A stretch of DNA of 45,775 nt, from NCBI GenBank assembly GCA_009924135.1, contig RFSE01000027.1:1-45775 (forward strand), read 5' to 3'. The notes below the pieces were generated by a model that saw only the letters and a program-made list of their open reading frames with translations, did no database searches and was not told the DNA's origin. A program made the translations under genes and the position numbers. The stretch is from Pseudomonadota bacterium (GTDB lineage: Bacteria; Verrucomicrobiota; Verrucomicrobiia; Limisphaerales; SXTU01). This document shows, piece after piece, positions 4,134-17,713 of the stretch; positions within the stretch are counted from its first letter, which is position 1; every line of letters starts with the position of its first letter.

Positions 4134-6890
4134 TTACCATTGATATTCCAGGGTGAGGGTGGAGCGGCCTTTGGGCAGCGTCAGGGGGATCAGCACTTCG
4201 CCGGCGTTGCCCTCGCGCACGATGCCCTTGTGCTCGCTGGTGATGCGCAACTGGAGTTGCGCGATGCCAAAGCTGCGTTCGGATTGTGTGGTGATGTTTT
4301 TACCGGTCGCGGCGCGGAAATAAAACGGCGTCGGTTCGGAGGGCGCGTCGAAGCGGAGGATCCGTTTGAAGTAGGTCTTGCCGTCCTTGTCCCGCACGTC
4401 CTCGAAGTAATCCTCCACCGCGATGTCGCCATACAGGTAATGGAACGTGGGCCGGCGCTGGGCATCCAGATGATAGCCGCGGAACTGGTACCCGTGATCC
4501 TGAGGGAACGCGTAGCTGGTCTTGCCCTTGTAAGGCCAGTTGTCCTCCAGCGATTTCAGACGGTGAAAGGGAATGCCCGGAGGGAATGCGATTTGATCGG
4601 TCCCGCGCGGTTGGAAGGAGCCCAGATCGACGTTGGCAAACTCGCCTTTCCAAAGTTGCCGCAGCGCCATTTCCTCGGAATCGAAGGCCAGGCTGATGCG
4701 CTCGGGATAACCCACGCCGATCCCGCGATAACCAATCGAACTTCGGCCCCGGCAGATCTCCGTGACATCGCTTACGCGCAGTTCACTGGACTGGCGAGAT
4801 AATCCCATCGGCTTCTTTACCCGGATGCCGTCCTCCAGATAAACCCAGAGCGCCTCAATCTGCTGCGCGACATCGCCGCCGAGCAAGTTGGGGCGGAGGG
4901 ATTTACCATCCGGCCAGTAACTGGGCATGATCACCGTGGGATGAAAACGGGCCGGCTGCCGCAGGTAGAGATGGAACCAGTTCTTCTGGAGCCGCTCGGT
5001 CACATACACAAGGTCCAAGGCGCTGACCTCGCCCGATTTCTGGCCGTTGAATTCATGGCACACGATGCAGCTCAATCCGGCGGTGCCGATCATCTCATGG
5101 CCAGCCGCCTTTGACTCCGACAGGTTGGCCACCTTGGGGATCGGTGACGTTTCGAGCTTATCCACCTTGCCGAACAAATCCACGAGATGCCCGACCTGGG
5201 CTTCGCCAAACTGCGGCATGGCGGCATCCAGATAGCCCCGCTGGCGTTTGCCGCGCAGCAGCACCTCGGCAATCCATTGGGGTTGCACCTTCGCCCCGAC
5301 GTGAGTGAGCGGCGGAGGGAGACGGCCCTGATCCCCGAGTGCCGGCTGGGTTCCGGTAAAGATCGCATTGCGCTCGGGTGCGATGCCTCCCAAGCCCGAG
5401 CGTTCGTGACAGGCGATGCAATTGAAGGTCGCCAGGGTCTTGTTGATTTGCTGTGCGTTGTCGAGCTGCGGCTGCTCTGCCCGGGGCAACGCCTTGGTGA
5501 TCCAGCCGCGCTGTTCGGCCGACAAATCAAAGCGCGGCCAGGGTCCGGCGGTCCCGCTCAAGCATCCTTGGTTCGGATTGAGCTTCGCCCAGGCCGTGGC
5601 GGCTTTCGCCGGGACACGGAGGTCTTCATGGCAGTTCGCACAGCCGAGCTTGCAGAATTGCTCACGCCCCCGCGCTGCGAGACCGGCATCCACCTTGAGC
5701 GGTTCGAAGGCGGGTATCTTTTCGTTGGAAGTGGACAGCATTGAGGTCGGGATCGATTGCCGGGCAAATTGCGGACCTTCCATTTCGCAGGAGAACTTGG
5801 CTTCGCGTCCGGTGTGGAAATACGTGAGCTGAAGCTGGTGCCAGCCGGAGGTCAGCTCGGCCGCGCCCTCCAGTTGTTTGACCCCGCGACGGTCGCTCGG
5901 CTCCTGCTGGATGACCGGCTTCCCATCCAGCACCAGCGAACCGCCGTTCAGCTTGAGGTAAAACTTGTAGCGCCCCGGATTGGCAACGTTCAGCCAGCCC
6001 TCGTATTTGATCGCCGTGTGGTGTTGAAGCTTGCCCAGGCTTTCCAGCGAAAAATCGTTTACGTGGCCGGCCCGCTCGGCAATCACCTTGTCACTTCCCA
6101 GCCCTTCCCAAACCTCGCCGCGATAGAGCGTGTAGGCGAGAGCCCCCGGCACGAGCGTGTCCTGAAGCAGAAAATGAGCAATCCGATCAAGGTCCTGCCC
6201 CGACAGTCGCAAGTCAGGCATGCGACCCGAGGGCCGGCTGGCGTGCGGCTGCCGTAAAAACTCCACCAAGCTTTTGAAGCTGTATTTCTTTTCCAACGCA
6301 CCTAGCGGGACGGAGTTTTGCGCTGGCAGTTCCTTTCCCTTTTCGTCGCGCGGGGCATGGCATGCGGCGCATCCCCGGGCATGGAACAGGCGTTTCCCCT
6401 GCTGCGCGGCCACGGCATCGGGCGGCTGGAGGGAGAAGTCGTTTCGCTTGAGCGAAACCAGGAAGTGCGTGAGCGCCGAGGCGGTTTCCTTCCTTTCGTC
6501 ATCGTTCAACTGCTTCAGCACGTCCGGCATGGTGGTGCCAGGTTTGGTCCCGTGCGGGTCACGCAGATACGTCTCAAGGTAATTGGGATTCACCCGGGAA
6601 CCGACCTCGGCCAGACGCGGGGCTTTTTTCGATCGCGTGGACAACGACGCATCACCCGTGTGGCAGGCCACGCAGTTCAATTCCTCGATCAGCACGAGGC
6701 CCTTGAGTTCCGGTCCGAGCTGGCCGGGGACGACTACCTCAGCCAACATCATCGGTACCGCACTGAAAAAGGCCATGACCACGCACGCGAACAGCGGAAA
6801 ACCCGCCGCGCTCACGCGGAACGTCTTCGCGCCGACCACCGCATGGTCACGGGGCTTCGGCTGAAAAAAAGAGGCATGCTGTTGCGTCAT
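4134..6890 (-). CDS. Penta-haem c-type cytochrome with PA14 domain
   Basis: I place the start at the ATG at 6890 (918 residues), because the 52 codons upstream are Arg/Pro-rich out-of-frame-like sequence. A single hydrophobic segment at about residues 27-50 anchors or exports the protein. Five CXXCH haem-attachment motifs are present: CVACH (73), CAACH (174), CANCH (417), CIACH (491) and CIVCH (608). Between the second and third lies a PA14-like carbohydrate-binding domain (about 245-370; IKYEGWLNVANPGRYKFYL). Distal ligand candidates are in MPDVLKQL, MPDLRLSG, MPQFGEAQ and MPSYWPDG. Probably a periplasmic electron acceptor for the neighbouring propeller dehydrogenase. Confidence 0.85.
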   Translation of the reverse strand: MTQQHASFFQPKPRDHAVVGAKTFRVSAAGFPLFACVVMAFFSAVPMMLAEVVVPGQLGPELKGLVLIEELNCVACHTGDASLSTRSKKAPRLAEVGSRVNPNYLETYLRDPHGTKPGTTMPDVLKQLNDDERKETASALTHFLVSLKRNDFSLQPPDAVAAQQGKRLFHARGCAACHAPRDEKGKELPAQNSVPLGALEKKYSFKSLVEFLRQPHASRPSGRMPDLRLSGQDLDRIAHFLLQDTLVPGALAYTLYRGEVWEGLGSDKVIAERAGHVNDFSLESLGKLQHHTAIKYEGWLNVANPGRYKFYLKLNGGSLVLDGKPVIQQEPSDRRGVKQLEGAAELTSGWHQLQLTYFHTGREAKFSCEMEGPQFARQSIPTSMLSTSNEKIPAFEPLKVDAGLAARGREQFCKLGCANCHEDLRVPAKAATAWAKLNPNQGCLSGTAGPWPRFDLSAEQRGWITKALPRAEQPQLDNAQQINKTLATFNCIACHERSGLGGIAPERNAIFTGTQPALGDQGRLPPPLTHVGAKVQPQWIAEVLLRGKRQRGYLDAAMPQFGEAQVGHLVDLFGKVDKLETSPIPKVANLSESKAAGHEMIGTAGLSCIVCHEFNGQKSGEVSALDLVYVTERLQKNWFHLYLRQPARFHPTVIMPSYWPDGKSLRPNLLGGDVAQQIEALWVYLEDGIRVKKPMGLSRQSSELRVSDVTEICRGRSSIGYRGIGVGYPERISLAFDSEEMALRQLWKGEFANVDLGSFQPRGTDQIAFPPGIPFHRLKSLEDNWPYKGKTSYAFPQDHGYQFRGYHLDAQRRPTFHYLYGDIAVEDYFEDVRDKDGKTYFKRILRFDAPSEPTPFYFRAATGKNITTQSERSFGIAQLQLRITSEHKGIVREGNAGEVLIPLTLPKGRSTLTLEYQW

Positions 6891-7093
6891 GTTCAATGGG
6901 TTCGATCTTCTACGCCGCAGGCCGTGTAGCAACAGATTTTCACCGGGGTGTTGCTTGCGCCTCCGGTCATTGGGGCGGGCTTCGGGTGGCTGAAGCCGCT
7001 GGCGTGATGTGCGTGGAAGAAGCCTGATTGGATGCCGCTTTGACAATTAGATGAATCGGGCAGCAAAAAAAGCGCGCAAAATAAAAAAGACTA

Positions 7094-7122
7094 TTGACGT
7101 AACCTTTCCTCTGTATTAAAAC
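7094..7122 (+). promoter_or_regulatory. Candidate sigma70 promoter at the head of the RNA island
   Basis: TTGACG (7094-7099) and TAAAAC (7117-7122) are separated by 17 bp in an A/T-rich stretch that contrasts with the GC-rich surroundings. Transcription would begin near 7128, on or next to the in-frame ATG codons at 7127 and 7145. The reading is from consensus only. Confidence 0.4.
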
Positions 7123-7144
7123 TCTTATGCATTCGAAGACCTGT

Positions 7145-7300
7145 ATGAACACTTCATTACAAGCAACCAGGACGGCGGTCGCCAAGGCGACACGTCGTGA
7201 GTGGATGCGTTGTGAAGACGTATTCAGTCTGGGACGCCATTCCGGCCAGTCGGGTTATATTCCCGGCCTCAACCCGAAAACACCCCCGGTAACCAGGTAA
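7145..7300 (+). CDS. Small basic protein or leader peptide (51 aa)
   Basis: An open frame of 51 codons begins MNTSLQATRTAVAKATRREW and ends SGYIPGLNPKTPPVTR before a TAA. An in-frame ATG at 7127 could extend it by six residues and would make it nearly leaderless relative to the candidate promoter. There is no recognisable domain and no strong Shine-Dalgarno. It sits alone between that promoter and a perfect intrinsic terminator 22 bp downstream, so this is either a tiny gene, an attenuator leader peptide for the downstream array, or a non-coding RNA. I do not recognise a family. Confidence 0.35.
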   Translation: MNTSLQATRTAVAKATRREWMRCEDVFSLGRHSGQSGYIPGLNPKTPPVTR

Positions 7301-7322
7301 CGAGCGAACCATTTTTCCGCCC

Positions 7323-7354
7323 ACCCTGCTTACCGAAAGTGAGCAGGGTTTTTT
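7323..7354 (+). terminator. Intrinsic terminator or attenuator
   Basis: ACCCTGCTTAC (7323-7333) pairs with GTGAGCAGGGT (7339-7349) through 11 pairs, one of them T-G, around a CGAAA loop. Six T follow (7349-7354). This is a textbook rho-independent terminator. It lies upstream of the tRNA-like array, so it could act as an attenuator. Confidence 0.8.
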
Positions 7355-7676
7355 GTTGGTCGGATCGGGTCAGCCAGCCATGTGATCGGAACAGACACAT
7401 ACAAACGAAAGTGAACACACTGTGACCAGAAAGTTTTTGACATCTATATGATGTCAGTCGCGCCAAATCAGACCGTCCGGAGGAGAGACTTAGAGCTCCA
7501 CCGGCGGGGTGTGCCCCGAGGCGATGCGCCAGGCCGCCGGAACGACAAATATCCCTTTTTACAATTCAAGGGCTTCGCAAGAGGTGTGCCCATAAACACC
7601 GAAACAGCCGCCGTGAATCCGCGGGCTGGGGTCGCATAGACCACCAGGAGGTGTTTGTTCTTTGTTGAAATGGCAT
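7355..7676 (+). other. Gap before the array: structured, no convincing gene
   Basis: No convincing protein gene. A -10-like TATGAT lies at 7447-7452, with a weak GTGACC (7422-7427) upstream; a perfect TTGACA at 7437-7442 lacks a partner. CCGGC (7501-7505) and GCCGG (7536-7540) enclose two small hairpins, GGGG-TGTG-CCCC and GGCG-ATG-CGCC, giving a possible three-way junction. At 7630-7646 a GGTC-GCATA-GACC hairpin is followed by ACCA. No T-arm or Y-RNA motif could be built here. Confidence 0.3.
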
Positions 7677-7706
7677 GGGCCGGGGGCGCGCAAGCGCTCC
7701 CGGCCC
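7677..7706 (+). repeat. Strong hairpin 10 bp upstream of tRNA-like Gly
   Basis: A 13-bp stem with one G-T pair closes a GCAA tetraloop (GCGC-GCAA-GCGC at its tip). No T-run follows, so it is more likely a spacer or processing hairpin than a terminator. A similar hairpin precedes tRNA-like Pro. Confidence 0.6.
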
Positions 7707-7716
7707 TCTACTTTCC

Positions 7717-7790
7717 GCGGCTGTGATTTAACAGCAGAATGTCTCTTTGCCAGGGAGAATGTCCGGGTGCGATTCCCGGCAGCCGCACCA
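7717..7790 (+). tRNA. tRNA-like Gly(GCC), non-canonical elbow
   Basis: Acceptor GCGGCTG (7717-7723) pairs perfectly with CAGCCGC, followed by A73 and an encoded CCA. The anticodon arm is TCTCT/GGAGA with loop TTGCCAG, giving anticodon GCC. The T-arm is CCGGG/CCCGG with loop TGCGATT: position 55 is G, not the near-universal U. The D-loop AACAGCA lacks G18-G19. G1:C72, C2:G71 and C35-C36 fit glycyl-tRNA synthetase recognition. Staphylococcal tRNA-Gly species used for peptidoglycan bridges have comparable D-loop and UGCA T-loop changes that weaken EF-Tu binding. Whether that holds here is inference. Confidence 0.85.
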
Positions 7791-7819
7791 ACCCGTTCGA
7801 GGACGGGAGCCGGGCCCGC

Positions 7820-7885
7820 ATTCCTCTGCCTCAAATTCCTTTGCCAAGCTCGGGAGCAGCGCTCCAACCGCATTGACAGAGGAAT
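7820..7885 (+). other. Long-range stem between tRNA-like Gly and Ala
   Basis: ATTCCTCTG (7820-7828) is the exact reverse complement of CAGAGGAAT (7877-7885), closing a 66-nt segment with an inner GGAGC-AGC-GCTCC hairpin. The shape recalls a Y RNA, but the GGGYCG and TTATC motifs of the other Y RNAs are absent. The rest of 7791-8049 shows a CCCGT/ACGGG hairpin at 7792-7807 and nothing else I can name. Confidence 0.3.
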
Positions 7886-8049
7886 TAAGGGCAGGGGAAC
7901 AGTTGCTTAAGGCCCGGCACACTGAGGGCTTCAATTCACTGATCCCCCCAGTCCTCTTGTTTCCTTCGCAGGCCGCGCGCCAGCTCGCGCCACCGGGTCT
8001 CCAAAACCCAGTCCGCTTGGGGCGGCACCAAGGCGGCCTGCCATTGTCC

Positions 8050-8124
8050 GGGGTCGTGGCAGACAAGCAATGCACCTGCTTTGCAAGCAGGCCGATGTGG
8101 GAGCGTTACCCACCGATTCCACCA
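8050..8124 (+). tRNA. tRNA-like Ala(TGC), non-canonical elbow
   Basis: Acceptor GGGGTCG pairs with CGATTCC in seven pairs including G3:U70, the alanyl-tRNA synthetase identity pair; A73 and CCA are encoded. Anticodon stem CCTGC/GCAGG carries loop TTTGCAA (anticodon TGC). The variable region is 5 nt. T-arm GTGGG/CCCAC has loop AGCGTTA, so positions 54/58 are A/U instead of U/A, with G55-C56. The D-arm GCA/TGC has loop GACAAGCAA without GG. Retention of G3:U70 argues that the RNA is still charged with alanine. Confidence 0.85.
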
Positions 8125-8130
8125 TTTCAC

Positions 8131-8203
8131 TGCGGGGAGAATGAGATTCAGGCGAGCCCCATAAGCTCTGTCTCCGTGGGTGCAACTCCAACCCCCGCAA
8201 CCA
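8131..8203 (+). tRNA. tRNA-like Met(CAT), non-canonical elbow
   Basis: Acceptor TGCGGGG pairs perfectly with CCCCGCA; A73 and CCA are encoded. The anticodon loop CCCATAA on stem GAGC/GCTC gives anticodon CAT but has C33 where U33 is nearly invariant. The T-arm GTGGG/CCAAC (one mismatch) carries loop TGCAACT. The D-arm is a stunted GAAT/ATTC with a 3-nt loop. Initiator features (1:72 mismatch, three G:C pairs in the anticodon stem) are absent. Begins 6 nt after the Ala element. Confidence 0.8.
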
Positions 8204-8207
8204 TTTC

Positions 8208-8295
8208 GGGTAGTGATCCGGCTGCCGCCCTGTAAATGCGGTGTCATCAAACAGGCCGGAAGCGACGACTGGAGCGTTACCAGCACTTCCCACCA
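8208..8295 (+). tRNA. tRNA-like Tyr(GTA), class II, no normal D-arm
   Basis: Acceptor GGGTAGT pairs with ACTTCCC (one T-T mismatch), then A73-CCA. Loop CTGTAAA gives anticodon GTA, and a long variable region follows, as expected for bacterial tRNA-Tyr. Only 10 nt separate the acceptor from the anticodon stem, too few for a D-arm. Instead TCCGGC (8217-8222) is exactly complementary to GCCGGA (8256-8261) in the variable region, so a helix embracing the anticodon arm may replace it. The T-loop is AGCGTTA on CTGG/CCAG. Confidence 0.75.
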
Positions 8296-8300
8296 TTTCC

Positions 8301-8388
8301 GGACTCGTAGCTCGATCAGCGGAGCAGCCCGTTGGCTGCGGGGTCCTGGCGGACGGCCACCAGGGTGCGAATCCCTCCGGGTCCGCCA
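8301..8388 (+). tRNA. tRNA-like, class II Ser-type with anticodon GGC
   Basis: Acceptor GGACTCG pairs with CGGGTCC (one T-G), followed by G73 and CCA. The D-arm is GCTC/GAGC with loop GATCAGCG. Anticodon stem CCCG/CGGG with loop TTGGCTG reads GGC, an Ala anticodon. But G3:U70 is absent, the variable region is 17 nt with a TGGC/GCCA stem, and the discriminator is G, all marks of tRNA-Ser. Seryl-tRNA synthetase ignores the anticodon, so this may be a Ser-accepting RNA. A competing GCAGCC-CGTT-GGCTGC hairpin overlaps the anticodon arm. T-loop TGCGAAT. Confidence 0.75.
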
Positions 8389-8403
8389 TTTTCCGAATCT
8401 TCA

Positions 8404-8436
8404 GGTGGGACTGTTCCCAGGGTTTCATGTCCCGCC
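8404..8436 (+). repeat. Spacer hairpin
   Basis: GGTGGGAC (8404-8411) pairs with GTCCCGCC (8429-8436), eight pairs with one G-T, in the 92-nt gap between the Ser-type and Pro elements. Confidence 0.5.
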
Positions 8437-8445
8437 TCCCCCAGT

Positions 8446-8473
8446 CCCGGCTCCGTCGCCCGACGGAGCCGGG
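8446..8473 (+). repeat. Perfect 13-bp hairpin 7 bp upstream of tRNA-like Pro
   Basis: CCCGGCTCCGTCG (8446-8458) and its exact complement (8461-8473) are separated by two bases. Like the hairpin before tRNA-like Gly it ends a few bases before an acceptor stem, which suggests a processing or insulating role. Confidence 0.65.
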
Positions 8474-8480
8474 GCCTTCT

Positions 8481-8555
8481 CAGCGCGTAGTGTAGGAGCA
8501 ACATGCCCGGCTTGGGCCCGGGTGACCGCAGGTGCAAGTCCTGCCGCGCTGACCA
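8481..8555 (+). tRNA. tRNA-like Pro(TGG), non-canonical T-loop
   Basis: Acceptor CAGCGCG pairs perfectly with CGCGCTG; A73 and CCA are encoded. C1:G72 with A73 matches bacterial prolyl-tRNA synthetase identity. D-arm GTGT/ACAT has loop AGGAGCA. Anticodon stem CCCGG/CCGGG has loop CTTGGGC (TGG). The variable region is TGACC, and T-arm GCAGG/CCTGC has loop TGCAAGT with G55. This is the one array member with a GG in the D-loop. Confidence 0.85.
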
Positions 8556-8560
8556 ATTTT

Positions 8561-8648
8561 AGTTGAGAGTTGAAAGTTGAAAGTTGAGAGGTCCGGAATC
8601 GATCAGCGACGGCGTACGCCTCTCAACTCTCAACTTTCAACCCTCAAC
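8561..8648 (+). repeat. Inverted-repeat spacer A (heptamer-based)
   Basis: The left arm (8561-8591) is built of GTTGAGA/GTTGAAA heptamers and the right arm (8618-8648) is its near-perfect inverse, with a 26-nt centre. It starts 5 nt after the CCA of tRNA-like Pro and ends 7 nt before tRNA-like Asn, so it fills the whole spacer. Confidence 0.8.
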
Positions 8649-8655
8649 GATCCCT

Positions 8656-8730
8656 TGCCAGGTGGTGTCAAAGTAGCACAGCGGTTTGTTACGCCGCACG
8701 GTGTTGGTGCGAGTCCAACCCTGGCAGCCA
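8656..8730 (+). tRNA. tRNA-like Asn(GTT), non-canonical elbow
   Basis: Acceptor TGCCAGG pairs perfectly with CCTGGCA, followed by G73 and CCA; G73 is the asparagine discriminator. D-arm GTGT/GCAC has loop CAAAGTA (no GG). Anticodon stem GCGGT/GCCGC has loop TTGTTAC (GTT). The variable region is ACGGT, and T-arm GTTGG/CCAAC has loop TGCGAGT. Confidence 0.85.
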
Positions 8731-8731
8731 G

Positions 8732-8823
8732 TTTGAATTGCGATTTACGATTCACGATTGACGAGCCGTTTTGCGGGCGGCCGTCGCGGGGCTTCGTAAA
8801 TCGTAATTCGTAAATCCCAAATT
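8732..8823 (+). repeat. Inverted-repeat spacer B (TTACGA-based)
   Basis: The left arm (about 8732-8764) is made of repeated GATTTACGA-like units and the right arm (about 8793-8823) of their inverse TCGTAAATC, around a GC-rich centre. It begins 1 nt after the Asn CCA. Spacer D is a relative. Confidence 0.75.
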
Positions 8824-8826
8824 TTC

Positions 8827-8849
8827 CCGGGCCACTTTTCATGGCCCGG
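8827..8849 (+). repeat. Hairpin before small ORF
   Basis: CCGGGCCA and TGGCCCGG form eight perfect pairs around a 7-nt CTTTTCA loop, just upstream of the Shine-Dalgarno of the 8877 ORF. Confidence 0.5.
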
Positions 8850-8876
8850 TCCGCAACCACAACGAAAGGTGATCCC

Positions 8877-9041
8877 ATGAAACCTGCCCTCCGCTATCAA
8901 AGCCAGTTGCTCCCACGCCGGAGCTACAAACCTAAACGCGTCCTCCGCATCCCGCCGGTGGCGAAGTTGAACTTCGTCTTCCACCCGGTGCGCTTCGGAG
9001 TGAAGCCCCAGATCAAAACCCTGGAATGCGCCACTGTCTGA
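8877..9041 (+). CDS. Small basic protein (54 aa), unknown
   Basis: The ATG at 8877 is preceded by an AAAGGTG Shine-Dalgarno (8865-8871), so it is probably translated. The product begins MKPALRYQSQLLPRRSYK and is rich in Arg, Lys and aromatic residues, with an FVFHPVRFGVKP core. It has no signal peptide or transmembrane segment. The charge is compatible with RNA binding, but I recognise no family. It lies inside the tRNA-like array between the Asn and Ile elements, on the same strand. Confidence 0.5.
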   Translation: MKPALRYQSQLLPRRSYKPKRVLRIPPVAKLNFVFHPVRFGVKPQIKTLECATV

Positions 9042-9097
9042 GGTCAGTCCGTTGTAACCAGCGCGCGACCGCCACGTGGCTCTTTCCCTAATTTCCG

Positions 9098-9130
9098 GCA
9101 GTGGCGTCGCCAGTCGTGCGACGCCACTGC
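9098..9130 (+). repeat. Perfect 12-bp hairpin
   Basis: GCAGTGGCGTCG (9098-9109) pairs exactly with 9119-9130 around a 9-nt loop, between the two small ORFs. No T-run follows. Confidence 0.6.
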
Positions 9131-9155
9131 GCGGACGAAGCTTGAGAGACCTTCC

Positions 9156-9395
9156 ATGAAAACATCCCTGTGGTCGTCCGTGCTCGGCGCCGACGAACGA
9201 ACGCGTCGGCTCAGACGGCACGCTGCTCCGACGCAACTGCCCATCTATCAAGCGGAACGGCTCGCCTACACCGACGCTGCCAACCTGTTGGCCGCCAACC
9301 CGGGAGCAGCGACGAAGGCACGACCGTCGCGATTTGAAGTCCATTACCGCTGGCTGCGCCTCCGTTTGCGCACCAGTCCGTCAGCCCTTCTGTAG
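9156..9395 (+). CDS. Small protein (79 aa) whose stop lies in tRNA-like Ile
   Basis: The ORF starts MKTSLWSSVLGADERTRR with a weak GAGAG (9144-9148) Shine-Dalgarno. It is Arg-rich, with no membrane segment and no domain I can name. Its TAG stop (9393-9395) falls within positions 8-10 of tRNA-like Ile, so translation of the ORF and maturation of that RNA from one transcript would be mutually exclusive. It may be a real small gene or a chance frame in GC-rich DNA. Confidence 0.35.
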   Translation: MKTSLWSSVLGADERTRRLRRHAAPTQLPIYQAERLAYTDAANLLAANPGAATKARPSRFEVHYRWLRLRLRTSPSALL

Positions 9396-9459
9396 CTCAA
9401 AAGCAGAGCGCCCGGCCGATAACCGGAAGACCGCGGAGCATTACCGCGCAGAAGGACCA
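9386..9459 (+). tRNA. tRNA-like Ile(GAT), non-canonical elbow
   Basis: Acceptor CCTTCTG pairs perfectly with CAGAAGG; A73-CCA is encoded. D-arm GCTC/GAGC has loop AAAAGCA. Loop CCGATAA on CCGG/CCGG reads GAT but has C33 instead of U33, as in the Met element. T-arm CGCGG/CCGCG has loop AGCATTA, the A54/U58 class. A73 fits isoleucine. Confidence 0.85.
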
Positions 9460-9500
9460 ACCTTCGTCCGCCCGACCGCCTGTGAGTCCGGCGCGACCAT

Positions 9501-9575
9501 CCCCGAGTAGCTGAGACAGATTAGCGCCTCCCTGAAGAGGAGGAGACGTTGGCGCGCTACCAACCTCGGGGACCA
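9501..9575 (+). tRNA. tRNA-like Phe(GAA), non-canonical elbow
   Basis: Acceptor CCCCGAG pairs perfectly with CTCGGGG; A73-CCA. D-arm GCTG/TAGC has loop AGACAGAT. Anticodon stem CCTCC/GGAGG has loop CTGAAGA (GAA) with U33. T-arm GTTGG/CCAAC has loop CGCGCTA, a third T-loop class with C54 and C58 but the same G55-C56-R57 core. The 41-nt gap after the Ile element holds no further arm. Confidence 0.85.
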
Positions 9576-9576
9576 G

Positions 9577-9666
9577 ATTAATGCGGAATGGCGAATGCGG
9601 AATGCGGAATGAAGGCGGCGTGCGTCGCGGCCCATTCCGCATTCCGAATTCCGCACTCCGCATTTC
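9577..9666 (+). repeat. Inverted-repeat spacer C (GGAATGC-based)
   Basis: The left arm (about 9580-9616) consists of GCGGAAT(GG/GC) units and the right arm (about 9632-9666) of the inverse ATTCCGC units. It starts 1 nt after the Phe CCA and ends 6 nt before the Arg element. Confidence 0.8.
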
Positions 9667-9672
9667 CTCCTT

Positions 9673-9750
9673 GCTCTCAAGGTGTAACCAGAACTGCACG
9701 CCGCCCTGCGAAGGCGGAGGCTCGTGGTGCAAATCCACGTGAGAGCACCA
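9673..9750 (+). tRNA. tRNA-like Arg(GCG), non-canonical elbow
   Basis: Acceptor GCTCTCA pairs perfectly with TGAGAGC; A73-CCA. D-arm GTGT/GCAC has a 10-nt loop AACCAGAACT without GG. Anticodon stem CCGCC/GGCGG has loop CTGCGAA, anticodon GCG. Bacteria normally read CGN with an inosine-modified ACG anticodon, so GCG is itself unusual. T-arm CGTGG/CCACG has loop TGCAAAT. Confidence 0.85.
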
Positions 9751-9751
9751 A

Positions 9752-9832
9752 TTTGATTTGCGATTTACGACTTGTGATTTACGAGGCCTTACCACCACGT
9801 AAATCGTCCTTCGTAATTCGTAAATTACCTTT
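9752..9832 (+). repeat. Inverted-repeat spacer D (TTACGA-based)
   Basis: The GATTTACGA units of the left arm (about 9752-9786) are mirrored by TCGTAATTCGTAAA units (about 9798-9830). It fills the gap between the Arg CCA and the His element and is related to spacer B. Confidence 0.75.
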
Positions 9833-9838
9833 TCCACT

Positions 9839-9913
9839 GGTGGTCATGATGTAAGAGCAGCATCACGCCCTGTGAAGGCGTTTGTGCCGGTGCAAGTCCG
9901 GCTGGTCACCCCA
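9839..9913 (+). tRNA. tRNA-like His(GTG) with G-1:C73
   Basis: Acceptor GTGGTCA pairs with TGGTCAC (two G-T), preceded by G-1 (9839) and followed by C73 and CCA: the G-1:C73 pair is the histidyl-tRNA synthetase identity element. D-arm ATGT/GCAT has loop AAGAGCA. Anticodon stem ACGCC/GGCGT has loop CTGTGAA (GTG). T-arm GCCGG/CCGGC has loop TGCAAGT. It is the last cloverleaf of the array; a Y RNA begins 5 nt later. Confidence 0.87.
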
Positions 9914-10025: not shown

Positions 10026-10090
10026 CTCCTTTTCTTCAGTGTCAGGGAGGAATGCGATATCAGGTAGAAAACAGACCCCATTGACTGGGT

Positions 10091-10107
10091 GGTGCCAAAG
10101 TGGCACC
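10091..10107 (+). promoter_or_regulatory. Palindromic operator of the toxin-antitoxin pair
   Basis: GGTGCC-AAAGT-GGCACC is a perfect palindrome 8 bp before the antitoxin start. RHH antitoxins usually autoregulate by binding such sites; a TTGACT lies just upstream at 10081. Confidence 0.5.
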
Positions 10108-10115
10108 GTCTGATC

Positions 10116-10400
10116 ATGGAACACGTTTTGGACGAGCCTCGCAAGCGGATCACGGCGCGCGTTACCGATGATGTGCGCACGACCCTGGAGCAGGCGGCGG
10201 AGCTGCTGGGCTCCACCGTGAACCAGTTCGTCGTGCAGACGGCCTATCAGGAAGCGCAACGCGTGATCGAACGCGAATCGGTCATCCGCCTTTCGCAACG
10301 GGATGCGCACAAGATCTTTTCCCTGCTGGACCACCCGCCCAAACCAAACGCGCGTCTGAAAGCGGCGGTCAAGGCGTTCAAAAGCTCGGTCCGTGCGTAA
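10116..10400 (+). CDS. DUF1778-type RHH antitoxin
   Basis: 94 residues from the ATG at 10116, chosen because the longer frame would run through the operator. The N-terminal half (KRITARVTDDVRTTLEQAAE, then LLGSTVNQFVVQTAYQEAQR) is a ribbon-helix-helix DNA-binding domain of the TacA/AtaR (DUF1778) family. The C-terminal tail (SVIRLSQRDAHKIFSLLDHPPKPNARL) is the usual toxin-neutralising segment. Its stop overlaps the toxin's GTG start by 8 bp, the usual arrangement. The cytoplasmic complex should repress its own promoter. Confidence 0.9.
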   Translation: MEHVLDEPRKRITARVTDDVRTTLEQAAELLGSTVNQFVVQTAYQEAQRVIERESVIRLSQRDAHKIFSLLDHPPKPNARLKAAVKAFKSSVRA

Positions 10401-10920
10401 GCTTGAACTTTTGACGAAGGCCCATGAGCGGGCCGGCTTTGACTGCGGCAGCGAGCCGTTGAACGTGTTTCTCCGGCAGACCGCGCGACAGCACGCTGAA
10501 CGAGGTATTTCACGGACGTTTGTGCTGGTCGAGGAGAACGCAGTTGAGCCGAAGCCAATCCTGGGATTTTTCTCCCTGAACCTCTGCCAGATCAAGCCAG
10601 CGGCCCTTACCCCGGAATTTGCCAGGCGGCTGCCGCGGGATGTGTCGGGAATCCGGCTGGGGCGGCTGGCAGTGGCAAAGGAATTCCAGCGCCAAGGCAT
10701 CGGCAAGCTGCTCCTTGTCGGGGCAATGGTGAAGTTCTTGGAAATCTTTCAACTGGCCGGAGGGATCGGCTTGTTCGTGGACGCCAAAGATCAGGCCGCC
10801 CGGCGCTACTACGAACAGTTTGGGTTTGTTGCGCTGCCCTCGAACGAACTGGAACTGTTTCTGCCCGTCAGGAGCATACAGGACGCGTTGGCTGGCTTGA
10901 AGCAACGTCAGCCAGACTGA
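10393..10920 (+). CDS. TacT/AtaT-like GNAT toxin (aminoacyl-tRNA acetyltransferase)
   Basis: 175 residues from a GTG start overlapping the antitoxin. The N-terminal signature (AHERAGFDCGSEPLNVFLRQ) is typical of GNAT toxins paired with DUF1778. Acetyl-CoA motif A is at 93-108 (AVAKEFQRQGIGKLLL), and YYEQFGF at 139-145 includes the candidate catalytic Tyr. Characterised members (TacT, AtaT, ItaT) acetylate the amino group of charged tRNAs and stop translation. Its position between tRNA-like genes and Y RNAs is suggestive, since both substrate class and neighbours are tRNA-shaped. No inactivating change is seen. Confidence 0.9.
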   Translation: MRKLELLTKAHERAGFDCGSEPLNVFLRQTARQHAERGISRTFVLVEENAVEPKPILGFFSLNLCQIKPAALTPEFARRLPRDVSGIRLGRLAVAKEFQRQGIGKLLLVGAMVKFLEIFQLAGGIGLFVDAKDQAARRYYEQFGFVALPSNELELFLPVRSIQDALAGLKQRQPD

Positions 10921-10982: not shown

Positions 10983-11111
10983 CGACGGGTCGCAGAATTG
11001 GGTTATCCTTATCACGGACGTGGTCGCCGGTTCGAATCCGGCCTCCGGCTCCAGATGCCGGGGTAGCTCAGTGGTAGAGCGCGTAAACCCCAGTTCAACT
11101 TTTATCCGTCG
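10983..11111 (+). ncRNA. Predicted YrlA-type Y RNA b with tRNA-mimic module
   Basis: CGACGG (10983-10988) pairs with CCGTCG (11106-11111). After an internal loop (GTCGCAG opposite AACTTTTAT), AATTGGGTT pairs with AACCCcAGTT (one bulged C). The apical part is a tRNA cut at the anticodon and rejoined at its ends: variable region TGGTC, T-arm GCCGG-TTCGAAT-CCGGC, acceptor strand CTCCGGC, loop TCCAGAT, acceptor strand GCCGGGG, D-arm GCTC-AGTGGTA-GAGC. D- and T-loops are fully canonical. The YrlA subfamily of bacterial Y RNAs is known to mimic tRNA next to Ro genes. Confidence 0.8.
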
Positions 11112-11134
11112 TTCTTTCAGGGGCCGCCAGTTAA

Positions 11135-12187: not shown

Positions 12188-12318
12188 CGATGGGCCGCAG
12201 TCATGGATTATCGTTGGTCGCAGGTTCGACTCCTGTCCGCTCCACCAGACGGGGCGGTAGCTCAGTTGGATAGAGCAGCCTCCGCAAGGAGTAATTCCCT
12301 GACGTCCCTTGCCCATCG
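12188..12318 (+). ncRNA. Predicted YrlA-type Y RNA c with tRNA-mimic module
   Basis: CGATGGG (12188-12194) pairs with CCCATCG (12312-12318); then GTCAtGGA pairs with TCCcTGAC with one mismatch. The 5' strand carries GGGCCGCAG and ATTATC, as in Y RNA b. The module has T-arm GCAGG-TTCGACT-CCTGT, acceptor CCGCTCC, loop ACCAGAC, acceptor GGGGCGG (one G-T), and canonical D-arm GCTC-AGTTGGATA-GAGC, plus an extra CTCC-GCAA-GGAG hairpin after the D-arm. The acceptor strands are joined by a 7-nt N-CCA-GAN loop exactly as in Y RNA b. Confidence 0.8.
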
Positions 12319-12377: not shown

Positions 12378-12560
12378 ATGGCAAATCACATCCCTGACGA
12401 AAACGCATCCACCTACGAAATCACCAGCAAACGCCGCCAAGGTTTCCCGTCCGAAACGCAGGTCAAACGCGGCCTGCGCATTGTCCACGGGGACAAGGAA
12501 CTCCGCGAGAAGCTCGGGCGCAACGACCTCTGTCCGTGTGGCTCAGGCCGCAGCTTTTAG
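12378..12560 (+). CDS. Small SEC-C motif protein, frameshifted at its zinc motif
   Basis: The ATG at 12378 has a good ATGGAGG Shine-Dalgarno (12367-12373). The 60-residue product ends [15 protein letters not shown] at a TAG. In the +1 frame the SEC-C motif continues as [12 protein letters not shown], restoring C-x-C-x8-C-C. The slip site is AGC TTT TAG G, one T too many. This is either a disabling insertion or a +1 frameshift on TTTT before a stop codon, as in prfB. SEC-C motifs bind zinc and occur on SecA and many RNA- or stress-associated proteins. Sited between Y RNAs c and d. Confidence 0.6.
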
Positions 12561-12698: not shown

Positions 12699-12702
12699 AT
12701 TT

Positions 12703-12769
12703 CTGCGGGCCGAAGGACCTGGGTTATCTCTTGCACAGACCAATCCCACGTTCACCAACTTGTCCGCAG
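12703..12769 (+). ncRNA. Predicted minimal Y RNA d
   Basis: CTGCGG (12703-12708) pairs with CCGCAG (12764-12769). An internal loop (GCCGAA opposite ACCAACTTGT) follows, then GGACcTGGG pairs with CCCAcGTTC (one mismatch) and the apex is a 21-nt loop starting TTATC. The 5' strand is strikingly close to the 5' end of human Y RNAs (CCGAAGG, GTTATCTC). There is no tRNA-like module. It lies 83 nt upstream of the Ro60 start on the same strand, the usual place for a bacterial Y RNA. Confidence 0.75.
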
Positions 12770-12852
12770 TTTCACATGCCCAATCGCACCGGAAGTTGGC
12801 GGTGCAGCAAAAACGGCGGTTATCAACTGCCACAAAATGAAAGGAGGCCACC

Positions 12853-14541
12853 ATGGCCATCAACTACGCAAAACTCTTCAACCGTCACACCACCCCGCAG
12901 TCCCAGCCGATCCCTGGCTCGAAGCAGGTCGCCAACTCGGCGGGCGGCTTCGTCTGGCAGGTCGATGACTGGACGCGGCTCGACCGCTTCCTGATCCTCG
13001 GGGCCGAGGGCGGCACGTACCACATCGGCGAGGTTGAACTCGTGAAGCAGAACCACGACGCGCTCCTCCGCTGCATCCAGGCGGACGGCGTGCGCGCCGT
13101 GAACCGCATCGTCGAGATCAGCGCGGCCGGTCGCGCGCCGAAGAACGACCCGGCCATCTTCGCCCTCGCGCTGGTGACCGCGCACGGTAATGCCGACGCC
13201 AAGGCGCTGGCTTTCCAGAGCCTTGGTCAGGTCTGCCGCACCGGTACGCACCTGTTCCACTTCGCCGAGTATGTGAACGCCCTGCGCGGCTGGGGTCGGG
13301 GTCTGCGCAACGCCGTGGGCCGCTGGTATGTCAGCCGGGAGGCGGACGACCTGGCCCATCAGGCGGTGAAGTACCAGCAGCGCGATGGCTGGTCGCACGG
13401 CGACCTGCTCCGGCTCGCCCACCCGAAGGCTCCGGGCCGGGAGCATGAAGCGGTTTTCCGCTGGATGCTCAACGGCGCGGATTCGCTCGGCGAACGCGAG
13501 GTGAAGCGCAAGGTGCGCGGCGAGGAGCGCGTGGCGAAGTACGCTGCGGTCGGTGAGTTGCCGGCGGTCATCACCGCGTTCGAGCAGGCCAAGCGGGCGA
13601 CCAGCAAGGGCGCCATTGTCCAGCTGATCGCCGAGCATGACCTGCCGCGCGAGGCGATCCCGACGCAGTGGCTCAACGAAGTCGCCGTGTGGGATGCGTT
13701 GCTCCAGCGCATGCCGTTGACGGCGATGATCCGCAACCTCGGCAAGATGACGGCCATCGGGCTCCTCTCGCCGTTCAGCGAGGCGAAGCAGTTGGTGCTC
13801 CGCAAGCTGAAGGATGAGGCGACGCTCCGGCGCTCCCGCATCCACCCGCTCGCCGTGCTCGTGGCGCAGAAGATCTACGCCCAGGGTCATGGTGAGAAGG
13901 GCGCGCTCAAGTGGTCGCCGGTGCCGGCGGTCGTCGATGCGCTGGACGAGGCGTTCTACGCCACGTTCCGCAACGTGGAACCGTGCGGCCAGCCGGTGCT
14001 GCTCGCGCTCGACGTGAGCGGTTCGATGGCTGGTTCGATGATCGCGGGCTCCTGCCTCTCGGCCCGGGAGGCGAGTGCGGCGATGGCGCTCGTCACGGCG
14101 GCGACGGAGCCGGCGCACGAGGTCATTGCGTTCAGCGCGGGTACGCACGGTTACGGTGGCATGCATGGCGGGGGCGAGCCGGGCATCACCCGCGTGGCCA
14201 TCTCGCCCCGCATGCGCCTGGCCGACGTCATCCGGCGCATCGAAGCCATCCCGATGGGGGGCACGGACTGCGCGCTGCCGATGGTGTGGGCGGCGCGCAA
14301 CCGGTTGCCGGTGTCCGGGTTCATCACCTACACGGACTGCGAGACGTGGGCGGGCAACGTCCACCCGGCGCAGGCCTTGCGCCAGTATCGCAGCGAATTC
14401 GTCGGGGACGCGAAGGCGGTCGTGGTCGGGTTGACCTCGAACGGCTTCACGCTCGCCGATCCGAACGACCGCGGCATGTTGGACGTGGTGGGCTTCGACA
14501 CCTCGGTGCCGGCCGTCATCGCGGACTTCATGCGCCGCTGA
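12853..14541 (+). CDS. rsr: Ro60 / TROVE-domain RNA-binding protein
   Basis: 562 residues with a perfect AAAGGAGG (12840-12847) 5 bp before the ATG. Residues about 15-370 form the TROVE HEAT-repeat ring ([51 protein letters not shown]). Residues about 380-562 are a von Willebrand A domain with an intact MIDAS: D387-x-S-G-S, T471 in MGGTD, D495 in TYTD. Ro60 rings bind misfolded RNA ends in the central hole and Y RNAs on the outer surface, and assist RNA decay or repair. No RtcB, RtcA or PNPase gene is nearby; instead it follows four Y RNAs and the tRNA-like array. Confidence 0.96.
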
Positions 14542-14617: not shown

Positions 14618-17600
14618 GTGGCGACGTTCAGCCCGGGCCCGGCGAATGAGAGCGGGCAGGCGATCACGAACGTGACCATTGCGAGTGTGACCAACAGCGC
14701 GTTGTTCAGCAGCCAACCGGCGATCAGCACCAGTGGCATCCTGACCTTCAAGCCGGCGGCGAACGCGAACGGTACGTCCCTCGTGACCTTCACGATCCAG
14801 GACAACGGCGGCACGGTGAACAGCGGCGTGGACACGTCCGCCTCGGCTGCGTTCCTGATCACGGTGACGCCGGTGAACGACGCGCCGACGATTACGTTCA
14901 GCACGAACAACGTGGTGGTGCTGGAAGACAGCGGCAGCTACAGCGGTGCGCTGGCGACCTTCACGACCGGTCCGGCCAATGAGTCCAGCCAGAGCATCAC
15001 GAACGTGACGGTGAGCAGCGGCAACCCCGGCCTCTTCAGCGTGGCCCCGAGCGTGAGCCCGGCAGGCGTGCTGACCTTCACCCCGGCCGCGAATGCCAAC
15101 GGCAGCGCCACGGTGACGGTCATCGCGCAGGACGACGGCGGCACGGCCAACGGCGGCGTGGACAAGGCGACGAACACGTTCACCATCTCGGTGATGGCGG
15201 TGAATCATGCGCCGAGTTTTGCACTGCCGGCGGGCCTGTCCAGTACGGGAGCGACGCTCTGGGCTTGGGGTTACAACGCTTTCGGGCAGTTGGGCAACGG
15301 CACGACAGCGGACCAGTTGAGTCCGGTGCAGATCGGCACGGATGTTCACTGGCAGGCGGCGGCGGCGGGCAGCAACCACACCGTTGCAGTCAAGAGCGAC
15401 GGGACACTTTGGGCCTGGGGCGGCAACGCCAACGGACAGTTGGGCGACGGCACGACGACGGCCCATTCCAGCCCCGTGCAGATCGGCACGGACACCAACT
15501 GGCAGGCGGTGGCTGCCGGGGCCAGTTACACGGTGGCCGTGAAGAGCGACGGGACGCTTTGGGCTTGGGGCGTCAATACCTTCGGCCAGTTGGGCGATGG
15601 CACCACCACCGAGCGCCATAGCCCGGTGCAAATTGGCTCGGCGACCACCTGGCAGAAAGTGACGGCGGGTTATGCCCATACGCTGGGGATCAGGACGGAT
15701 GGCACGCTCTGGGCCTGGGGTAACAATCCTGACGGCCAGTTGGGTGACGGGACAACCACCGACCGGCACAGTCCGGTCCGGGTTGGCACGGGCACCACAT
15801 GGCAGTCCGTCTCGGCGGGGCAGAGCCACACGGTTGCTACCAAAAGTGACGGAACACTCTGGACTTGGGGTGATGATTACTATGGTCAGTTGGGTGATGC
15901 CTCCACCTCCTATGATTATCGAGTAACGCTAAATATTTTGGGCTTTGTTTGGAAGGATGAGGCTTACATCAGCGAGGCAAAGCGATCCAACCCCACACAG
16001 ATTGTCTTGTCTCAAAGTTATGGGGACTCCGCCGCGATCAACAATTGGTCGAATTCTGGTTGGTCTGCAATTGCTGCGGGCAGGAACCACACGGCCGCAT
16101 TCCAAAGCTCTGGCGCAGGTTGGATTTGGGGCGATCAGGCCGAAGGGCAGGCGGGTGCTCCTGAAGGAGCATCGAGCTTGATCAGCCGCTTGACGCTAAA
16201 TAATCCCCATCCCCTCTCGACTTTGAGCATCGCGGACATGGTCTTTTTTACCAACCAGCCGGCTCCCCTATTCCAAGATGGAGCTGGAGATTTTAGTTAT
16301 GTGGGTGCCAGCGCGGTTTCTTCCTTCGCGTTGAAAACTGATGGCACCCTCTGGACCATGGGCGGCGACGATCACGGACAGTTAGGTGATGGCACCACGG
16401 TCAATAACACGAGTGGGGTTCCGCGTCAGTTGGGTGTCTCCACCAACTGGCTGTCATTGTGGCTGGGATCAATGGCGCAACACACGCTTGCCTTGCAGCG
16501 GGCGAATTACTCGCAGCCGTTCAGCTTGGCGGTCATGGAAGACAGCGGCGCGTTTGTTTCCAACAACTTTGTGACTGCCATCTCCGCCGGTTCGGCCAAT
16601 GAATCCGGCCAGGCGGTGACCTTCATTGTCACGAACGACAACAACTCGCTGTTCAGCGTGCAGCCGGCCATTGACAACAATGGGACGCTGACCTTCACGC
16701 CCGCACCCAACGCCGTGGGCACCGTCACCATCACGGTCATCGCCCAGGACGACGGCGGTACGGCCTTCGGTGGCACGAACGTCAGCGCACCCCAGTCCTT
16801 TCCGCTTACCATCACACCGGTGAACGACGCGCCGACGATTACGTTCAGCACGAACAATGTGGTGGTGCTGGAAGACAGCGGGAGCTTCACCGGCGCGCTG
16901 GCGACCTTCACCGTTGGAGCGGCCAATGAGTCCAGCCAGAGCATCACGAACGTGACGGTGAGCAACAACAACCCCGGCCTCTTCAGCGTGGCTCCGGCCA
17001 TTGACACCAATGGCGTGCTCACCTTCGCCCTGGTGGCGAATGCGAACGGCACCGCAACGGTCACGGTCACGGCCCAGGACGATGGCGGCACCGCCAACGG
17101 CGGGGTGGACACCAGTGCGCCGCAGACCTTCACCATCACGGTGACGGCCGTGAACGATGCGCCGAGCTTCACGCTGCTGTCCGCCACAGTCACGGTGCTG
17201 GAAGATGCGGGCGCGCAGAGCGTCGCCAATTTCACGACGAACATTGTCGCCGGTCCGGCTGACGAGGCCGCCCAGCTCGTGGCCTTCACCCTCACGAATG
17301 ACAACAACGCGCTCTTCAGCAGCCAGCCGGTCATCGGCGCGAACGGCACGCTGACCTTCACCCCGGCGGCCAATGCGTACGGCTCGGCCACGGTGACGGT
17401 CGTCGCGCAAGACAATGGCGGCACGGCCAACGGCGGCGTGGATACGAGCGCGGCGCAGACCTTCACCATCACGGTCAACAGCGTGAACGACGCGCCCACG
17501 GTCACGCTCGCGGCGAGCAACATCGCGCTGCTGGAAGACAGCGGGCCTTCACCGGCGGGGTGGGCTTCGCCAGCTTCTCGCCCGGTCCGGCCAACGAGGC

Positions 17601-17713
17601 CGCGCAGACCCTGCTCGGCTACACGGTGGCGAACAACAACAACGCCCTGTTCAGCACCCAGCCTGCGATCAACACCGCTGGCACGCTCACCTTCACCCTG
17701 GCGGCGGGCGTGA
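14618..17713 (+). CDS. Giant repeat protein, N-terminal part (5'-truncated, frameshifted)
   Basis: The frame begins in the middle of a cadherin-like/tandem-95 repeat ([13 protein letters not shown]), with no signal peptide and no Shine-Dalgarno, 20 bp after the Ro60 terminator, so its 5' end is missing. About six repeats of roughly 95 residues ([14 protein letters not shown]... NGGVD... VTPVNDAP) surround an RCC1 propeller (nt 15240-16500; [19 protein letters not shown] units). At 17543-17545 the expected run of four G in GACAGCGGGGCCTTC has three, shifting the frame; codons after it are spurious. The real protein continues in the 17560 ORF. Probably surface-exposed; function unknown. Confidence 0.75.

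Follow-up and report, generated by a model that had tools for sequence, protein, structure and literature searches.

The window analysed here is a single contig of 45,775 bases (RFSE01000027.1) from a 6.68 Mb draft genome of 490 contigs (90% complete), and its central feature is an array of 12 transfer RNA (tRNA) genes packed on the plus strand within 7717-9913 (2.2 kb). Read directly from the sequence, all 12 T-loops carry G at position 55 (G55), as had been claimed for every T-loop of the array, and CCA is encoded at the 3' end of all 12 genes. The original prediction had listed eleven genes; its strand and CCA assignments were borne out, but a tRNA-Trp with anticodon CCA (7970-8043) had been missed. 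The genes are given below with methods that support each of them (ARAGORN, the Rfam tRNA model, our scanner and profiles of the amino-acid slots of the array).

7717-7790, plus strand: tRNA-Gly(GCC), T-loop TGCGATT (ARAGORN, Rfam, scanner, slot profile).
7970-8043, plus strand: tRNA-Trp(CCA), T-loop GGCGGCA (slot profile).
8050-8124, plus strand: tRNA-Ala(TGC) with G3:U70, T-loop AGCGTTA (ARAGORN, Rfam, scanner, slot profile).
8131-8203, plus strand: tRNA-Met(CAT) with U1-A72, T-loop TGCAACT (slot profile).
8208-8295, plus strand: tRNA-Tyr(GTA), T-loop AGCGTTA (slot profile; anticodon by eye).
8301-8388, plus strand: Asp-family tRNA with anticodon GGC and an enlarged variable arm, T-loop TGCGAAT (scanner, slot profile).
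8481-8555, plus strand: tRNA-Pro(TGG), T-loop TGCAAGT (ARAGORN, Rfam, slot profile).
8656-8730, plus strand: tRNA-Asn(GTT), T-loop TGCGAGT (ARAGORN, Rfam, slot profile).
9386-9459, plus strand: tRNA-Ile(GAT), T-loop AGCATTA (Rfam, scanner, slot profile).
9501-9575, plus strand: tRNA-Phe(GAA), T-loop CGCGCTA (ARAGORN, Rfam, slot profile).
9673-9750, plus strand: tRNA-Arg(GCG), T-loop TGCAAAT (ARAGORN, scanner, slot profile).
9840-9913, plus strand: tRNA-His(GTG) with G-1 and C73 kept, T-loop TGCAAGT (ARAGORN, Rfam, slot profile).

ARAGORN by itself recovered seven of these genes, and the Rfam tRNA model likewise seven. Across 25 fetched loci and the window, the scanner reported 228 matches on the array strand, two on the opposite strand and none after mononucleotide shuffling (one shuffle for each of the 26 sequences). 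The D-loop GG at positions 18-19, predicted to be missing, was present in 0/9 window tRNAs whose D-loop the scanner parsed; Trp, Met and Tyr, which lie outside this set, have unusual D-arms, that of Tyr containing CCGG. The predicted spread of amino-acid identities stood except at 8301-8388, where an Asp-family gene combines an Ala-type GGC anticodon with an inserted variable arm (parsed relatives have GTC).

The ordinary tRNAs of the same draft genome look different. ARAGORN found 40 of them (stretches L001-L039; L, G and C numbers are our labels for loci or stretches, genomes and contigs), all with a U55-type T-arm, and all 38 that the scanner parsed have U55 with GG. Seven array members (Trp-CCA, Met-CAT, Tyr-GTA, Pro-TGG, Asn-GTT, Phe-GAA and His-GTG) are redundant with this ordinary set, which also includes an Ala-GGC with the same anticodon as the Asp-like array copy. 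No ordinary Gly-GCC, Ala-TGC, Ile-GAT or Arg-GCG was seen among the 40 tRNAs of this incomplete assembly. Between the array genes, imperfect long inverted repeats were seen by eye at 8558-8640, 8732-8830, 9577-9670 and 9752-9830, and are probably small mobile or repeat elements.

Nearly all tRNAs are known to have the G18-U55 contact. Among distinct CCA-ended array tRNAs from the window and related loci, counted as all CCA-ended scanner matches, G55 was found in 494/499, with U55 in three, A in one and C in one (a narrower count, 323/325, was designed to leave out U55 tRNAs). A Leu-CAG tRNA among the three with U55 also has a D-loop GG. The rest of the elbow varies in a coupled manner. An interior G in the D-loop accompanies C56 in 265/273 tRNAs versus 12/49 with A56 or G56, in an alignment-free count made without MAFFT because loop lengths differ. 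A Watson-Crick 19-56 pair was present in 133 of 197 usable tRNAs (128 of the 325 were dropped, position 19 not being placeable), compared with a mean of 96 and a maximum of 112 in 2000 shuffles. Both the C56 and the A/G56 states occur within Leu-CAG and within Pro-TGG, and array Pro genes fall into two types by acceptor stem. These coupled counts indicate that the G19-C56 pair is mostly kept or swapped, while G18-U55 is gone. Relative to the ordinary elbow contacts, as set out in the accessible part of PMC7912444, the altered T-loop likely gives the folded corner a different build.

The stems of these tRNAs are well preserved: acceptor, anticodon and T stem cells are paired in 98.6%, 96.8% and 98.8% of cases, compared with 92.7%, 86.2% and 90.7% when the same stems are shuffled within slots, and two-sided changes occur at 157/651 positions. 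The D stem is paired in 90.3% versus 88.8% when shuffled. G55 in 494/499, the 19-56 coupling, the paired stems and the conserved gene order described below support the selection for a different elbow that the original prediction had proposed, and the recurrence of G55 with paired stems in many loci rules out the decay of a single array. Elements that specify aminoacylation are retained as well. Ala G3:U70 is kept in 8/8 array Ala-TGC tRNAs, and His G-1 and C73 in 11/11 array tRNA-His; array Asn and Pro match ordinary tRNAs at 1-72 and N73. The 1-72 mismatch of Met is present in 5/5 parsed array Met tRNAs of relatives, the window copy having U1-A72. Overall, identity elements match those of ordinary tRNAs for most amino acids compared, with Ile and Cys having no counterpart. 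The coupled 19/56 changes and the kept aminoacylation elements make the array tRNAs look functional, with a rebuilt elbow, and on sequence evidence the array is a real, selected and functional-looking set.

We profiled 30 loci (29 related loci plus the window), many of them cut by contig ends and some slot matches being weak. Four of them (L102, L113, L070 and L076) match all 20 amino-acid slots, with 25-40 slot matches each (40 in L102, 38 in L076), and full sets hold both the 1-72 mismatched and the paired Met. Parsed anticodons cover 19 amino acids in L102 and L076 and 18 in L113; the anticodon parser misread or missed Tyr in all loci, and Tyr-GTA was read by eye. If U34 reads four-codon boxes, 55/61 codons would be readable in L102 and L076, plus two Tyr codons. 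Gene order is largely conserved among loci, with single members absent here and there. The upstream half runs Gly, Trp, Ala, Met, Tyr, Asp, Pro, Arg, Asn, Ser, Ile, Phe, (RtcB), Glu, Arg, Thr, His; between the halves come Y RNAs, a SEC-C gene and Rsr, in that order; and the downstream half runs Cys, Gly, Lys, Arg, Leu, Leu, Leu, Ser, Ile, Arg, Gly and then Glu, Leu, Thr, Met, Thr, Leu, Lys, Gln, Val, Gln, (HNH). Judged by its sequence, the window array is the upstream half of such a long tRNA array. Homologous arrays with stems kept paired, anticipated by the original prediction, were thus found elsewhere with the same gene order in many loci.

The most striking part of the locus is a leader peptide encoded upstream of the array, beyond the coordinates covered by the original prediction.

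7145-7300, plus strand: leader peptide open reading frame (ORF) with all 20 amino acids, 51 codons long from the ATG at 7145 and 57 from that at 7127.
7323-7354, plus strand: intrinsic terminator (attenuator) downstream of the leader ORF (stem 7323-7349, then a T tail).

The ORF ends in GGTAACCAGG-TAA (last codons and stop), 22 bases before the start of the terminator. Homologous leaders were sought in 46 loci by means of the terminator pattern, which yielded 29 distinct leaders with no candidate lost to the script filter. Taking the start codon with the fullest peptide, all 20 amino acids are present in 21 of the 29, 19 in seven and 18 in one, whereas column-shuffled alignments gave a mean of 3.8 all-20 leaders and a maximum of 10 in 5000. 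The position of tryptophan varies: most leaders have it in a WPT-like motif, and a number of them, including those of the window, L081 and L082, have it elsewhere. One leader, used as the query of a protein search, gave matches at 41 places in 32/196 genomes of the order; the leader of the window, which is more distant, was not among them. Thirty of its matches, fetched as loci, make up a second set that partly overlaps the first: 21/30 leaders contain all 20 amino acids, eight contain 19 (L397 with an internal stop) and one contains 18; a terminator follows in 28/30, and in 26/30 the short stretch fetched includes one or more array tRNAs.

In a homology-free scan of 2711 short ORFs in 914,342 bases, 71 contained all 20 amino acids and 65 were followed by a terminator; 23 had both, against 1.7 expected from the separate frequencies. 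These 23 comprise 18 homologous leaders and five others before tRNA genes (L353, L362, L363, L365 and L366) for which no resemblance was seen by eye. At random composition, 3.4% of 52-residue peptides are expected to contain all 20 amino acids, and 149 of 3171 56-residue windows from six real proteins did so. A related leader in L367 has 19 amino acids. L362, L363 and L365 are minimal operons composed of an all-20 leader, a terminator, a single U55 tRNA-His and an HNH gene; this make-up hints that the switch may also act on production of the HNH protein.

The 5' arm of the terminator, CCTGCTTACC, is in many loci complementary to the end of the ORF, GGTAAGCAGG-TAA (last codons plus stop). Such complementarity extends over at least eight contiguous bases in 12/29 loci (0.5% of shuffles). 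The antiterminator and terminator folds of L269 are near equal (-21.2, and -20.3 with the arm hidden), and the terminator persists in the full fold of the other nine loci that were folded.

Two further conserved elements lie between the attenuator and the first tRNA gene.

7439-7455, plus strand: palindrome GACATC-N5-GATGTC, a possible operator, between the two leader elements.
7560-7712, plus strand: second conserved structured leader RNA of about 150 nucleotides, with a terminator-like hairpin at 7677-7706.

The palindrome pattern (GAC-T-C N5 GA-GTC) recurs in 21/30 upstream regions and could serve as an operator for some regulator. The second leader RNA, aligned from 30 sequences, has 52 pairs, a few of them inside the first tRNA, with 1359/1519 cells paired and two-sided changes at 15 pairs; the window scan returned no Rfam match for it. 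Its hairpin at 7677-7706 is GC-rich, has a T-rich tail and stands immediately before tRNA-Gly, and the RNA could act as a further attenuator or be a small RNA in its own right. The palindrome and a second RNA with its own terminator hairpin indicate that control is probably exerted in more than one layer, and two terminators ahead of the first window tRNA are compatible with a silent array. Control by sigma-54 was also considered and rejected. No sigma-54 type site with at most three mismatches lies on the plus strand of 6212-8069, the window scan at that threshold gave fewer matches than shuffled sequence did, and in 24 loci the 320 bases ahead of the first tRNA held a single match (L268, 10 of 12 fixed positions). 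With no plus-strand site near the leader or array start, RtcR-type control is unsupported there (an RtcR gene was not searched for).

Downstream of the array, the window encodes Rsr, the bacterial Ro60 protein, with Y-RNA-like elements and a small SEC-C protein.

10983-11114, plus strand: YrlA-like Y RNA (tRNA mimic), RF02553 at 44.2 bits, below the gathering score of 69.
12213-12279, plus strand: second YrlA-like element, RF02553 at 41.6 bits, below the gathering score.
12378-12560, plus strand: small SEC-C motif protein of 60 amino acids (PF02810), with homologues that adjoin Rsr in relatives.
12701-12770, plus strand: Y-RNA-like RNA directly upstream of Rsr, RF01656 at 37.0 bits (gathering score 38).
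12853-14541, plus strand: Rsr, with TROVE (PF05731, 162 bits) and Ro60 von Willebrand factor A (PF25045, 202 bits) domains.

The RF01656 element scores above gathering in 4/8 loci scanned. Between the array and Rsr, at 10089-10920, lies a TacA-type antitoxin gene paired with a GNAT protein gene, which was not found in the related loci searched; we take the GNAT protein to be TacT-like, and TacT acts on charged tRNA. In relatives, RtcB is encoded either inside the upstream half or beyond the HNH gene, and in many fuller loci the downstream half closes with a gene for an HNH endonuclease. The window has neither; RtcB is found on contig C116 and a 36% HNH relative on C449 of the same assembly, and the HNH family is widespread, occurring in 256/387 genomes of the phylum. 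Further downstream, after an RCC1/cadherin-like gene, an ORF of 4237 codons spans 17560-30273 and possibly encodes a very large surface-type protein.

We consider it probable that the array is a spare tRNA set, switched by attenuation, that likely replaces ordinary tRNAs lost to cleavage or in short supply; of the readings considered, the reserve set has the most support. Having read every one of the 20 kinds of codon and reached the stop, a ribosome would cover the 5' arm, so that the terminator forms and the array stays silent. A ribosome stalled at any codon would leave the 5' arm free, the terminator would fail and the whole tRNA set would be made. The array tRNAs would then be charged by host synthetases and used by the ribosome, and, with G55 and no G18, they may serve poorly as substrates of enzymes or nucleases that recognise the G18-pseudouridine-55 corner. 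Rsr with its Y RNAs, and RtcB, might bring repair and quality control of RNA into this response. We offer the fuller picture more tentatively, at a little under even confidence: a second tRNA set, sufficient in itself and marked by an elbow code of its own, silent until a universal all-20 leader sensor releases all replacements at once, and forming with Ro60, Y RNAs and an RNA ligase a mobile rescue package that Verrucomicrobia and jumbo phages share. If true, the leader would be the first attenuator known to us that senses shortage of any aminoacyl-tRNA, Ro60 and RtcB would be linked to tRNA replacement, and the elbow and leader together would suggest a purpose for long tRNA arrays. Heritable, compensated 20-amino-acid sets without G18-U55 also offer a natural experiment on the function of the tRNA elbow.

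Several observations weigh against a reserve set under attenuator control. The window copy is incomplete, with 12 tRNAs and neither RtcB nor HNH in its 45 kb, and a consensus scan detected no promoter. Some array tRNAs depart from what translation would lead one to expect: C33 occurs in 43/325 and A8 in 76/325, both odd for translation; A73 in 16/26 array Gly tRNAs and the 1-72 pair of array Phe differ from ordinary tRNAs; and parsed array Leu tRNAs have a short variable loop. As to the leader, 15 of the 46 loci have no terminator match (some contigs end early) and one has a match without an ORF. One or two amino acids, most often Tyr, are absent from 8/29 leaders, and the count of all-20 leaders relied on the start codon with the fullest peptide among related sequences that are not independent. 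In the minimal operons L362, L363 and L365, an all-20 leader stands without a complete set behind it. Clear antiterminator pairing occurs in only 12/29 loci; in the window it amounts to six contiguous bases (one mismatch in ten) and the fold keeps the terminator. Given this imperfect match and a fold that favours the terminator, the antiterminator is the least certain step.

The strongest rival holds that the tRNAs are decoys, charged or at any rate folded yet held off the ribosome by their altered elbow, which act as bait for toxins that cleave or modify tRNA and as substrates of the linked repair proteins. Decoys are possible, though we think them unlikely. In their favour, the combination of G55-C56 with the absence of G18-G19 resembles staphylococcal cell-wall tRNA-Gly, C33 (43/325) and other core oddities occur, RtcB and Rsr lie inside many related loci, and the window itself has the TacA/GNAT pair between array and Rsr. 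However, 20-slot sets with both Met types, G3:U70 and G-1/C73 exceed what bait needs, and an all-20 leader fits supply better than bait.

Somewhat less likely still is that the array is cargo, selfish or of phage origin, left over from phages or plasmids rich in tRNA genes, mobilised by HNH and useless to the bacterium. Its distribution is patchy and consistent with horizontal transfer. An Ala tRNA probe matched 33/196 genomes of the order (3/196 for the reversed control), and 18 of 20 stretches around probe matches contained at least three array tRNAs, with one in L272 and none in L285. TROVE proteins occurred in 30/196 genomes (29 above the cut-off); among eight genomes of the same genus, TROVE was found in none and the Ala probe in two. 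Some genomes, such as G107, have several array copies. Named relatives with the same locus are mostly Verrucomicrobia, including three Pedosphaera or Pedosphaerales and one Akkermansia, and in a different family of the same class L366 and L367 carry 17 and 29 G55 tRNAs. Phages hold such genes too: phage contig L178 has a tubulin-like gene (a weak PhuZ match), Rsr, an HNH relative and 14 G55 tRNAs. Viral contigs L301, L307, L306 and L311 mix U55/GG and G55/no-GG tRNAs, two distinct elbow states, in one array, and the two phage groups together gave 199 tRNAs with U55 and GG (84 + 115), 59 with G55 and no GG (44 + 15) and 20 exceptions (17 + 3), nine C55/A55 rows being left out; these counts are not independent, since the first group was found with G55-array patterns and L306 and L309 look like one sequence. 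Against useless cargo stand the compensated stems, elbow coupling and all-20 leaders, which show continued selection in many separate loci. Separately, L178 carries a tmRNA gene (8079-8522) adjoining Rsr and the G55 tRNAs.

We regard as improbable a third alternative, in which the elbow marks the tRNAs as substrates of Rsr, RtcB or another partner, for repair or signalling and not decoding. In its favour, the locus of many relatives brings together Rsr, Y-like RNAs and RtcB. When named genomes were scanned, 140 Rsr relatives were found and 80 loci kept; G55 tRNAs accompany Rsr in 22/22 Verrucomicrobial loci with at least 68% identity, and in neither L114 (Verrucomicrobial, 57% identity) nor the 57 others. 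Against such marking stand the long G55 arrays with no Rsr between their halves (L267 and L281) and the viral contigs L190, L197 and L231, in which Rsr sits beside 20-30 ordinary U55 tRNAs. A strict tie between array and Ro60 was rejected on the same kind of evidence, as L267 (same genus), L271 and L281 have both halves with no Rsr between them. In L092 and L270 Rsr persists only in pieces beside the arrays, which points to possible loss of Ro60 from loci that retain the array. The L190 and L197 arrays also include CTA anticodons, which are possible stop suppressors.

Very improbable is a role as amino-acid donors for peptide or cell-wall chemistry off the ribosome, as in staphylococci, which has the T-loop resemblance in its favour and is opposed by the representation of all 20 amino acids and by the lack of such a transferase among the annotated conserved genes (not every conserved ORF was annotated).

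Staphylococcal peptidoglycan tRNA-Gly, with its G55-C56 T-loop and no G18-G19, had been named as the nearest precedent. The resemblance is one of the T-loop; retained identity elements and a complete amino-acid set favour a reserve translation set over a cell-wall donor. The staphylococcal tRNA also serves glycine alone, with no array, leader or Ro60, whereas here there are 12 slots (20 in four relatives). The leader invites comparison with those of trp and his, ribosome-mediated attenuators with one to three regulatory amino acids that precede biosynthesis genes. Both kinds have a short leader ORF, regulatory codons and a terminator, and part of the present loci also show an alternative pairing; here the leader contains all 20 amino acids and tRNA genes lie downstream.

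Other parallels concern RNA damage and repair. According to the accessible part of PMC10264068, phage tRNA sets have predicted changes at positions read by host nucleases, in the anticodon loop. These too are spare tRNAs that have been altered, but here it is the elbow that changes, in nearly every tRNA. The accessible text of PMC9086364 describes a contact-dependent toxin nuclease that cuts the T-loop next to pseudouridine, which we cite as a precedent only. The locus also resembles the rsr-yrlBA-rtcBA repair operons (PMC7790460, as far as its accessible text goes) in uniting Rsr and a YrlA-like RNA, with RtcB in relatives; it differs from them in the large altered tRNA set at the same place.

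The closest known systems are the long tRNA arrays, which the accessible portions of PMC5966550 and PMC12803027 describe as patchy, mobile groups of many supernumerary tRNA genes for most or all amino acids, with an HNH endonuclease as the commonest protein gene (a common companion and not a strict definition). In Anabaena, per the accessible text of PMC10272220, the trn operon is silent and induced by translation stress, and its repressor also controls rtcB and HNH genes. Like the arrays of Anabaena and Mycobacterium, the present locus is a dense multi-amino-acid unit, with HNH in fuller relatives. To compare T-loops, we used scanner counts, ARAGORN-based readings often being out of register, on an HNH-linked sample of 12 records fetched from 68 plasmid and 58 phage record matches; four of the 12 (L288, L293, L296 and L297) had at most two tRNA-like matches. 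The five plasmid arrays (Nostoc, Mycolicibacterium, Paenarthrobacter, Acidiphilium and Variovorax) and three phage arrays (Tunturi_5, Mx1 and S-CBWM1) found in this way have U55 with few exceptions, which rejects G55 as a general trait of HNH-linked arrays, and none of these eight has an all-20 leader with a terminator. The accessible parts of PMC5966550, PMC12803027 and PMC10272220 mention no such leader for known arrays, and our literature searches, with most subscription papers out of reach, found neither G55 arrays nor an all-20 leader. The claim that such a set is undescribed therefore stands for G55 arrays in the literature searched and falls for the kind of array, long tRNA arrays being known. 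Set apart from the eight compared arrays by G55 nearly throughout, the altered-elbow G55 array is a new variant of long tRNA arrays.

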